Positions 44,900-48,623 of a stretch of DNA of 58,250 nucleotides are shown here, piece after piece (positions within the stretch are counted from its first letter, which is position 1; each line of letters starts with the position of its first letter). A program made the position numbers and the translations under genes. The notes below the pieces were generated by a model. It was not told where the DNA came from, searched no databases, and saw nothing but the letters and a program-made list of their open reading frames with translations. The DNA lies in NCBI GenBank assembly GCA_027490985.1, contig JAIXXC010000228.1, positions 1 to 58,250 on the forward strand, read 5' to 3'. This DNA is from Verrucomicrobiales bacterium (lineage in GTDB: Bacteria > Verrucomicrobiota > Verrucomicrobiia > Limisphaerales > UBA9464).

Positions 44900-44985
44900 G
44901 CCCCCCCACCGCCCCCAAGCGGACGAGTTCGGGCTTGGCTCCCGGGCGGGAAGGGCGCTCAATTTGCGGACTCCCTCCCGATTGC

Positions 44986-46344
44986 ATGAGCACCGACTCG
45001 CCCCAGTTCCTGTCCCGCGAGGCCACCGTGGCCGGGCCAGGATTCTCGCGGTGGTTGGTGCCACCGGCGGCGATCGCCGTGCACATGTGCATCGGCGAGG
45101 TCTACGGTTTCAGCGTCTTCAATGAACCCCTGAGCCGACTCCTCGGCGCCACCGCACACGACCCGGCTCGGGATTGGACCATTCCGCAGATCGGTTGGAT
45201 CTACTCGATCGCCTTGGTCCTGCTCGGACTTTCCGCCGCGGTGTTCGGCAAATGGGTCGAGCGCAGCGGCCCCCGCAAAGTGATGGTCACGAGCGCCACC
45301 TGCTTCTGTTCCGGACTGGTGTTGTCGGGCATCGGAGTGCAGCAGCACTGGCTGTGGCTGGTGTACCTGGGATACGGCGTGATCGGCGGCATCGGACTCG
45401 GACTGGGCTACATCGCCCCGGTGTCCACCCTGATGAAATGGTTTCCGGATCGGCCCGGCATGGCCACGGGCATGGCCATCATGGGCTTCGGCGGAGGCGC
45501 ATTGATCGGGGCCCCTCTCGGCGTGACCCTGATGGCGCATTTCAAGACGGCCACCGATCCGGGCGTCGCGTCCACGTTCTTCGCCATGGCCGGCCTGTAT
45601 GCCGTCTGGATGCTCTTCGGAGCCTGGCTCGTCCGGGTGCCCGCGGCCGATTGGAAGCCAGCGGGTTGGCAACCCGCGGCGGCCGGATCCAAGGCCGGAC
45701 CCGCCCAGGCGGTGTCCGTGGATCAGGCCTGGAAGACCCCCCAATTCTGGCTCCTGTGGATCGTCTTGTGCATGAACGTCAGCGCGGGCATCGGTGTGCT
45801 CGGACAGGCCTCGCTCATGTGCCAAGACCTCTTCGGTGTCAGCGCCGCCGTCGGAGGCGGATTCGCCGGACTGCTGTCGCTCTTCAACATGGGAGGCCGC
45901 TTCCTCTGGTCGTCGGTGTCCGACCTCACCGGCCGGCGCACGGTGTATGCGATCTACTTCCTCCTGGGAGCCCTGCTCTACGCACTGGTGCCCTGGACCC
46001 AGAAGATCGGCAGCCGCGCCCTGTTCGTCGCCGTGACCGCGGTGATCATCTCCATGTATGGCGGTGGTTTCGCCACCATCCCGGCCTACTTGCGCGATCT
46101 CTTCGGAACCCATCAGGTCGGGGCCATCCATGGCCGACTGATCACGGCCTGGTCGCTGGCGGCCATCGTCGGCCCAAATCTCATCAACTACATCTCCGCC
46201 GCGAAGAAGAAGGCCGGCGTGCCCGCGGCCGAAGCCTACAACAGCACCCTGTACCTGATGTGCGGCCTGCTGCTGGTGGGGCTGATCGCCAACCTGCTGG
46301 TGCGCCCGGTGCATCCGCGACACCACCTGGCAACGGCCCGATAG
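44986..46344 (+). CDS. OFA (oxalate/formate antiporter-like) family MFS transporter
   Basis: CIGEVYGFSVFNEPLSRL, GLGYIAPVSTLMKWFPDRPGMATGMAIMGFGGGALIGAPL, DLFGTHQVGAIHGRLITAWSLAAIVGP. Confidence 0.93.
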   Translation: MSTDSPQFLSREATVAGPGFSRWLVPPAAIAVHMCIGEVYGFSVFNEPLSRLLGATAHDPARDWTIPQIGWIYSIALVLLGLSAAVFGKWVERSGPRKVMVTSATCFCSGLVLSGIGVQQHWLWLVYLGYGVIGGIGLGLGYIAPVSTLMKWFPDRPGMATGMAIMGFGGGALIGAPLGVTLMAHFKTATDPGVASTFFAMAGLYAVWMLFGAWLVRVPAADWKPAGWQPAAAGSKAGPAQAVSVDQAWKTPQFWLLWIVLCMNVSAGIGVLGQASLMCQDLFGVSAAVGGGFAGLLSLFNMGGRFLWSSVSDLTGRRTVYAIYFLLGALLYALVPWTQKIGSRALFVAVTAVIISMYGGGFATIPAYLRDLFGTHQVGAIHGRLITAWSLAAIVGPNLINYISAAKKKAGVPAAEAYNSTLYLMCGLLLVGLIANLLVRPVHPRHHLATAR

Positions 46345-46561: not shown

Positions 46562-47917
46562 ATGAAAACACTGACTCCCCTGCTCCTGGCCTCCGCGCTG
46601 TCGCTGACCGCCGTGGCCGCCGAACCCAAACACAACACCGCCCTCCCCGGCGGCAAACTGCCCAAGCCCGTCAAGGTGTCCCTCGTGAAGGTCGCCGGCG
46701 GCTTCGTCGATCCCGTGCGCGTCTCGCTGGCCCCGGGCGACAACAACCGCCTCTTCGTCTGCGAACGGACCGGCGTGGTGAAGCTCATCAAGAACGGCAA
46801 GGTCCAGGACAAGCCCTTCCTCGACATCCATGAGACGGTGGTCAGCTCCTTCCTCGAGCAGGGTCTCTACGACCTCGAGTTCCACCCGAAATTCGCCGAG
46901 AACGGCAAGTTCTACGTCCACTACTCCGACATGTGGTTCAATGGCGCCGGGTTCATCGTCGAGTACCAGGTCTCGAAGACCAACCCCGACAAGGCCGATC
47001 CGGAGTCGGCCCGGGTGGTCTTCCAAATGCCCCGCCCCTACGCCAACCACAACGGCGGCGAGATCGCCTTCGGACCGGATGGCTACCTGTACATCGGCAG
47101 CGGTGATGGCGGTTGGGAAGGCGACGTCCTGGGTGCCGGCCAAGACCTGAGCACCTGGCTGGCGAAGATCCTGCGCATCGACGTCAACCCCAGCCAACCC
47201 GACCGCGGCTATTCCATCCCCAAGGACAACCCCTTCATCACGCCAGGCTCTCAGATGAAGCTCTTCGGCGTGACCGAAGAGGCCTTCAACAAGATCCATC
47301 CCAACGCCAAGCCCGAGATCTGGAGCTACGGCCTGCGCAACCCGTGGAGCTTCCAGTTCGACCCCAAGACCGGCGACATGTACATCGCCGACATCGGCCA
47401 GAACCACTACGAGGAGGTCAATTTCGAGCCCCGCGGCAAAGCGGGCGTGAACTACGGCTGGAAGTTCATGTGCGGCACCCATCCGTTCCCCCTGCCGCTC
47501 GACGCCAGCGGCAAGCCCGATCTCGATGCGGTCAAGGACGCCCCGAAGGTGGGTGAGGCCCCGATTTGCGAATACAGCCATGTCGACCAGGGCAATTGCG
47601 TCATCGGCTTCGGCGTGTACCGCGGCACCAAATACGCCCAGATGGACGGCACCTACTTCTTCGGCGACTGGGGCTCCGGCAAGGTCTGGGGCACGGCCCG
47701 CGATGCCCAGGGCCAATGGCAGATGCAGGAATTGCTCAACACCAAGCTGATGTTCACCGGCGGCGGTCAGGGTTCCGATGGCACCCTCTACGTCACGGAC
47801 GCCAAGGCCAACTACGGTGGCCCGGCCGATCCGGCACAGAACGAGCGCGGTGCGGTGTGGATGCTGGTGCCTTCCGACAAGGTGCCCGCCGGCGCCGAAG
47901 TGGCCCCGGTGGAGTGA
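46562..47917 (+). CDS. exported PQQ-dependent sugar dehydrogenase (glucose/sorbosone dehydrogenase family)
   Basis: signal peptide; GLYDLEFHPKF, NHNGGEIAFGPDGYLYIGSGDGG, GLRNPWSFQFDPKTGDMYIADIGQ. Confidence 0.9.
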   Translation: MKTLTPLLLASALSLTAVAAEPKHNTALPGGKLPKPVKVSLVKVAGGFVDPVRVSLAPGDNNRLFVCERTGVVKLIKNGKVQDKPFLDIHETVVSSFLEQGLYDLEFHPKFAENGKFYVHYSDMWFNGAGFIVEYQVSKTNPDKADPESARVVFQMPRPYANHNGGEIAFGPDGYLYIGSGDGGWEGDVLGAGQDLSTWLAKILRIDVNPSQPDRGYSIPKDNPFITPGSQMKLFGVTEEAFNKIHPNAKPEIWSYGLRNPWSFQFDPKTGDMYIADIGQNHYEEVNFEPRGKAGVNYGWKFMCGTHPFPLPLDASGKPDLDAVKDAPKVGEAPICEYSHVDQGNCVIGFGVYRGTKYAQMDGTYFFGDWGSGKVWGTARDAQGQWQMQELLNTKLMFTGGGQGSDGTLYVTDAKANYGGPADPAQNERGAVWMLVPSDKVPAGAEVAPVE

Positions 47918-47964: not shown

Positions 47965-48006
47965 CCCGGGGGCAAAGCTCAGGCTTGGCCCCCGGGCCTT
48001 TTTTGG
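47965..48006 (+). terminator. intrinsic terminator between the PQQ dehydrogenase and cupredoxin genes
   Basis: cccgggggcaaagc-tcag-gcttggcccccggg followed by ccttttttgg. Confidence 0.8.
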
Positions 48007-48035: not shown

Positions 48036-48623
48036 ATGTTCCGGAATCTCGCCCTCGCCTGCGCCCTTGCCCTCAGTCCTCTGGTTTGGGCGGCCGACGC
48101 CCCCGCCGCCCCCGGACACGACCACGGTGCGCCTGCCGCTGACTCCAAGGCACCGGAACCCAAGGAATCGATGTTCCTGTCGGTGGACCCGAAGTCACCG
48201 AAGACCGCACGCCTCGTGGTGGTTTCGGCGTACAACGCGGTGAACTACGGCATGAACTTCAACGGCTTCGCCAAGGGCGGTGCGCGCTACACCATCCCAC
48301 AAGGCTGGACCGTGTCGGTGGTCTTCACCAACAACAGCCCGGTGCCCCACAGTGCGATCGTGGTGGAGAAGCCCGTGGTGAAAAAACTCCAGATGGGCGA
48401 ACCGGCCTTCAAGGGAGCCTCGACGCCCTACCCGGTGCGCGGCACCACGGGCAAGACGGGCGTGCCCTTCGAGTTCGTGGCCGATGAGGCCGGTGAATTC
48501 GCCATCGCCTGCGGCTTCCCCTCGCATTCGGCCAACGGCCACTGGATCGCCTTCGACGTCAGCGCCACGGCGACGGCCCCCAGCCTGCAGTTTGGCGACA
48601 AGCCCGCCTACGTGGCCCGCTGA
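48036..48623 (+). CDS. exported sulfocyanin-like cupredoxin
   Basis: signal peptide; YTIPQGWTVSVVFTNNSPVPHSAIVVE and FAIACGFPSHSANGHWIAF. Confidence 0.72.
   Translation: MFRNLALACALALSPLVWAADAPAAPGHDHGAPAADSKAPEPKESMFLSVDPKSPKTARLVVVSAYNAVNYGMNFNGFAKGGARYTIPQGWTVSVVFTNNSPVPHSAIVVEKPVVKKLQMGEPAFKGASTPYPVRGTTGKTGVPFEFVADEAGEFAIACGFPSHSANGHWIAFDVSATATAPSLQFGDKPAYVAR

Follow-up and report, generated by a model that had tools for sequence, protein, structure and literature searches.

Tuning of the axial copper ligand is a textbook theme of the cupredoxins, for which the natural variants described usually have Met, Gln, or a hydrophobic residue at this position and nitrosocyanin is the main red outlier. 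To our knowledge, axial-His sites are known only as mutants. Rusticyanin binds copper through His85, Cys138, His143, and Met148, and sulfocyanin through His110, Cys171, His176, and Met181; both share the spacing C-x4-H-x4-M (PMC517927). Nitrosocyanin, the red copper protein, has a His2CysGlu site (PMC9241007). Laboratory replacements of the axial Met by His include the azurin Met121His variant, which has a type 1.5 site (Kroes 1996, cited as ref. 20 in PMC4059628), and a laccase variant in which the potential changed from 357 to 371 mV, a shift of +14 mV (PMC6487685). In the open literature searched (most subscription-journal papers lay outside the search), we found no description of a natural axial-His cupredoxin and nothing relevant on pairs of a PQQ dehydrogenase and a cupredoxin.

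The window analyzed here is a 58,250-nucleotide stretch of a Verrucomicrobiales bacterium (contig JAIXXC010000228.1). It holds a complete open reading frame of 195 codons, ending in TGA, for an apparently exported cupredoxin that we call CUP; the translation includes SPVPHSAIVV and ACGFPSHSANGHW. Feature positions are collected in Table 1. CUP belongs to the SoxE family, with a PF06525 match of 53.7 bits (E = 2.1e-14; gathering cut-off, 21), but reaches only 41.4 bits against the TIGR03094 sulfocyanin equivalog model, for which the curated cut-off is 168.4. The first-pass annotation had named it a sulfocyanin-like cupredoxin. The SoxE or sulfocyanin-like part of that name is upheld by the PF06525 match, whereas a strict sulfocyanin assignment is not, given the TIGR03094 score and a loop, CGFPSHSANGHW, that deviates from the sulfocyanin signature at several positions, Met among them. 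Judged by its sequence, CUP is a variant of the cupredoxin/SoxE kind.

Table 1. Positions of the features discussed; coordinates refer to the window unless a locus (L number) is given.
Feature	Position	Strand	Details and basis
MFS transporter	44935..46344	+	L-lactate MFS model NF049980, 326.5 bits (cut-off 320); often beside the pair, in either orientation
GSDH-family (PF07995) HHIP-like beta-propeller	46562..47917	+	signal peptide; constant upstream partner of CUP
Hairpin and T6 tract between propeller and CUP	about 47965..48004	+	CCCGGGGGCAAAGCTCAGGCTTGGCCCCCGGGCCTTTTTT; terminator- or attenuator-like; fold z = -2.46
CUP, SoxE-family cupredoxin with His at the axial-Met position	48036..48623	+	195 aa; translation, PF06525, conservation, AF2
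Predicted Sec signal peptide, residues 1 to about 20	48036..48095	+	MFRNLALACALALSPLVWAA; from sequence, cleavage site by eye; residues 1–35 low pLDDT
N-terminal tail with His (H28-D-H30)	48117..48125	+	at least two His in the tail of 29/29 homologues
M73-N-F-N-G, equivalent of sulfocyanin FNFNG; M73, rival axial ligand	48252..48266	+	alignment; FNFNGTS signature (PMC517927)
H105, predicted first copper-ligand His (P-H-S)	48348..48350	+	codon CAC; invariant (36/36)
C159, predicted copper-ligand Cys	48510..48512	+	codon TGC; invariant (36/36); sole Cys of the mature protein
H164, predicted second copper-ligand His	48525..48527	+	codon CAT; invariant (36/36)
H169, at the axial-Met position (rusticyanin Met148)	48540..48542	+	codon CAC; alignment; invariant (36/36)
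Rhizobial plasmid SoxE-family proteins with CARQTHLMDGHW loop	L058:2929-3522, L059:2938-3528, L060:2803-3396		plasmid searches
Giant PVC-type protein with DUF7133, HEAT, F5/8, and Met-type cupredoxin domain	L076:1-3249 (G000:C143)		loop CTFPGHxxxMWG; same genome as CUP

The AF2 model of CUP has a mean pLDDT of 86 and a confident core, with blocks past residue 40 at 89–98; the tail after the signal peptide is of low confidence, and the well-modeled domain starts at about residue 40. In a Foldseek search, rusticyanin ranked first, followed by laccase and nitrous-oxide-reductase entries (cupredoxin domains), these best hits all having a probability of 1.00; the model thereby matches the Greek-key beta-sandwich of solved cupredoxins. 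Rusticyanin is also among the best sequence matches and has an identical C-x4-H-x4-axial spacing, but it differs in its axial Met148, in its role in iron oxidation, and in sequence overall (about 22% identity). The archaeal sulfocyanin/SoxE proteins (PF06525, TIGR03094) share with CUP the Pfam domain, the C-x4-H-x4-(axial)-W spacing, NFNG, and a first ligand in PH; CUP differs from them in having His for the axial Met and the loop CGFPxHxxxGHW rather than CGI[AL]GHAxxGMW, in being bacterial, and in being paired with a propeller.

The copper loop of CUP reads C159-G-F-P-S-H164-S-A-N-G-H169-W, and H105 lies within PHS. Translation and codon positions agree with the Cys and His codons and the upstream SPVPHSAIVV segment given in the first-pass annotation, which had also proposed that His occupies the axial-Met position. 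The alignments bear this out: H169 pairs with rusticyanin Met148, ungapped, in both phmmer single-sequence and profile alignments, and also with the Met in the signature published for sulfocyanin, C-G-I-[AL]-G-H-A-[VAQ]-[SA]-G-M-W (PMC517927), so that the loop ends in G-H-W where the signature has G-M-W. A type 1 blue copper site would combine the His2Cys triad with an axial Met or Gln; CUP has the triad (H105/C159/H164), but the axial residue is His in 36/36 proteins.

Those 36 distinct Verrucomicrobiota proteins (40–91% identity to CUP in the aligned subset) came from 19 relatives on GTDB contigs and from PF06525 searches of 96 related and 388 phylum-wide genomes. H105, C159, H164, H169, and W170 are invariant throughout, and the loop C-G-F-P-x-H-x3-G-H-W is present in every stand-alone Verrucomicrobiota member examined. 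The family is rare in the wider phylum (6/388 genomes at E ≤ 1e-5 in the PF06525 search). Among 29 sequences, the H169 codon is CAC in 16 and CAT in 13, a synonymous change, and CUP is under purifying selection between near pairs, whose dN/dS is far lower than 1 (dN 0.06 and dS 0.77 against locus L001, for instance). The invariance, the synonymous switching, and the low dN/dS together indicate that H169 is maintained by selection. A sequencing error or single-strain oddity is ruled out by the 36 homologues and their alternating His codons.

Related cupredoxins elsewhere, sampled outside Verrucomicrobiota on plasmids only, vary at the axial position. Rhizobial plasmid proteins annotated as "sulfocyanin-like copper-binding protein" (Sinorhizobium, Microvirga, and Phyllobacterium) resemble CUP in their PF06525 domain, a loop ending in GHW, and an axial-position His, but their CARQTHLMDGHW loop does not have CGFP, they have no Met73, and no constant propeller partner was seen. 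One Phyllobacterium plasmid copy (L061:2935-3443) has an apparent frameshift before the copper loop; it is annotated short and was recovered by tblastn in two pieces. The sulfocyanin-like protein of Deinococcus sp. NW-56 (WP_104992204.1) shares PF06525 and 37% identity over the core with CUP, but it has an axial Gln in the loop CGVPGHGMGGQY and its gene adjoins nirK, the copper nitrite reductase gene. Giant PVC-type proteins in the source genome and its relatives contain a fused cupredoxin domain with a normal axial Met. The axial residue therefore varies among Met, Gln, and His within related cupredoxins. The branches in the tree of the verrucomicrobial and rhizobial His proteins are very long and do not separate one origin of the axial His from two.

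The propeller encoded directly upstream of CUP scores 127.5 bits against PF07995 and 48.5 bits against the curated PQQ-dehydrogenase model TIGR03606, below the cut-off of 434.55; it also matches TIGR02604, a family of giant PVC proteins, weakly. By sequence and fold, its closest solved relatives are HHIP proteins, followed by PQQ aldose sugar dehydrogenases (the pLDDT of the model is only 69). HHIP proteins are not known to be enzymes. Residues H163, R259, and N260, which we take to be the equivalents of His144, Arg228, and Asn229 of sGDH, are invariant, and the protein has both the PF07995 domain and a catalytic-type His/Arg-Asn set. On these sequence features, the propeller is likely an oxidoreductase. 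PqqC was absent from the source genome (G000) and from all genomes of the same family tested; if the donor is PQQ-dependent, its PQQ would have to come from outside the cell, and otherwise a different cofactor would be required.

CUP lies directly downstream of the propeller gene on the same strand in all 34 non-identical loci that show both genes, with a gap of 12–197 bp, while the outer flanks vary: genes for RibF, a 3-keto-disaccharide-hydrolase-family protein, and the MFS transporter are present in some loci only or are inverted. Using E ≤ 1e-120 to define propeller orthologues in 33 related genomes, we found both genes in 32, 31 of them by search and one (G047) in which CUP is cut by a contig end. 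The exception is G067, in which the propeller is followed by an unrelated gene (L084:5257-5994) with the motif CFMHPWM (C-x2-H-x2-M), cupredoxin-like by eye and with no Pfam match over cut-off, an apparent replacement of the downstream partner. Outside the 33-genome set, G330 (L088) has a CUP without a propeller within about 5 kb. The linkage is strong evidence for a functional propeller-CUP pair. The propeller itself is extremely conserved (96–99% in close loci versus 83–95% for CUP). The presence near the pair, in many loci, of an MFS carrier that matches the L-lactate transporter model is a hint of a carboxylate-related substrate.

The hairpin and T6 tract between the two genes are conserved in the genus of the window and present in all 11 close loci aligned. 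The element is single copy in the genome, and we rejected the idea of a genome-wide repeat. Several other genera have short propeller-CUP gaps of 12–55 bp, mostly without the hairpin. The hairpin may partly uncouple CUP transcription from that of the propeller.

We favor the reading, to which we assign a probability of roughly 0.55, that CUP is a small periplasmic electron carrier in which H105, C159, and H164 bind a single copper and H169 substitutes for the axial Met as the fourth ligand, and that its electrons probably come from the propeller. In this scheme, the exported apo-protein would take one copper into the four-residue site; the propeller would oxidize a small substrate and hand single electrons to the copper; and CUP would pass them on to the respiratory chain, a heme-copper oxidase subunit II gene being present. 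With only one conserved Cys, the site is expected to be mononuclear, and a binuclear CuA center, which needs two conserved loop Cys, was rejected. It is probably a natural Cu(His)3Cys-type site of type 1.5 or 2 character, with the same ligand set as azurin Met121His and other engineered variants of this type if H169 binds copper; those are laboratory mutants, whereas CUP is natural. A changed axial ligand with altered color and potential is plausible. The +14 mV change in laccase means that a large potential shift should not be assumed, and, together with the type 1.5 azurin site, it makes color or type a safer prediction than a large drop in potential. A point for the electron-carrier reading is that rusticyanin, the top Foldseek match, is itself a Cu(His)2CysMet protein. 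Further points are that giant PVC proteins in these genomes, of the family to which the propeller shows its weak TIGR02604 match, have a Met-type cupredoxin domain fused to them, and that the gene following the propeller in G067 has a cupredoxin-like motif. Counting against it are the invariant M73 in NFNG, the absence of PqqC, the HHIP relatives of the propeller, the hairpin in the genus, and the G330 CUP without a propeller.

The alternative that survives best, although we consider it unlikely, is that H169 sits at the axial position without binding copper (protonated, flipped out, or hydrogen-bonded); the center would then be a perturbed type 1 site or an ordinary three-coordinate one, and the His would serve docking, proton coupling, or stability. 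The laccase precedent shows that an axial His need not act as a strong ligand, since the Met-to-His change at the type 1 site had only that small effect on potential and cut efficiency 400-fold (PMC6487685). Set against this, His binds copper strongly, and the site type of azurin is altered in the Met121His variant (cited in PMC4059628); moreover, invariance in all 36 proteins and the same His in the rhizobial homologues are more in keeping with a ligand than with a residue acting at the surface.

Another Met could, in principle, provide the axial sulfur, with H169 as a secondary or exchangeable ligand. M120 was discarded because it is not conserved. A single further Met, M73 (GMNFNG), is invariant (36/36); it occupies in all homologues the place of the leading F of sulfocyanin FNFNG, with NFNG retained, and lies two residues ahead of F75, which aligns near rusticyanin residues that we presume to be close to copper. 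The distribution of this Met makes such a role improbable. The same column is Met in the giant fused cupredoxins (MRYD/MIYD), which have a normal axial-Met loop, and this does not look like compensation; it is Ile in the rhizobial GHW proteins and Leu in the Deinococcus Gln protein. The presence of Met in the Met-loop proteins and of Ile in the rhizobial ones shows that M73 does not track loss of the axial Met.

We regard it as similarly improbable that CUP is a copper chaperone or sensor whose His tail and (His)3Cys site hold copper without electron transfer. The N-terminal tail contains two or more His in every homologue, and among red or green cupredoxin-like sites there are some without an established role in electron transfer. 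CUP shares its fold and loop with electron-transfer cupredoxins, however, and its constant neighbor is a GSDH-type propeller; among copper-homeostasis genes, no constant neighbor was seen. The tail His residues themselves (GHDHG and variants) are possibly involved in copper loading. Finally, nitrosocyanin, like CUP, is a natural departure from the His2CysMet site of cupredoxins, but a His2CysGlu site was rejected for CUP, in which the first-ligand His105 is invariant and no Glu ligand is indicated.

More broadly, there may be a natural cupredoxin clade with a genuine Cu(His)3Cys site, fixed in several families of Verrucomicrobiota and present in rhizobia too, that serves an HHIP-like beta-propeller oxidoreductase as its dedicated redox partner; we put this wider proposal at a little under even odds. 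If H169 binds copper, nature already makes a type of site that we have so far known only from laboratory mutants. Natural selection and strict conservation of such an axial His would let the biological use of the site be studied, with ready-made homologues bearing Met, Gln, and His at the axial position for comparison. If the pairing is true, CUP would also be a concrete redox partner with which to assay a bacterial protein related to the HHIP-type propellers.
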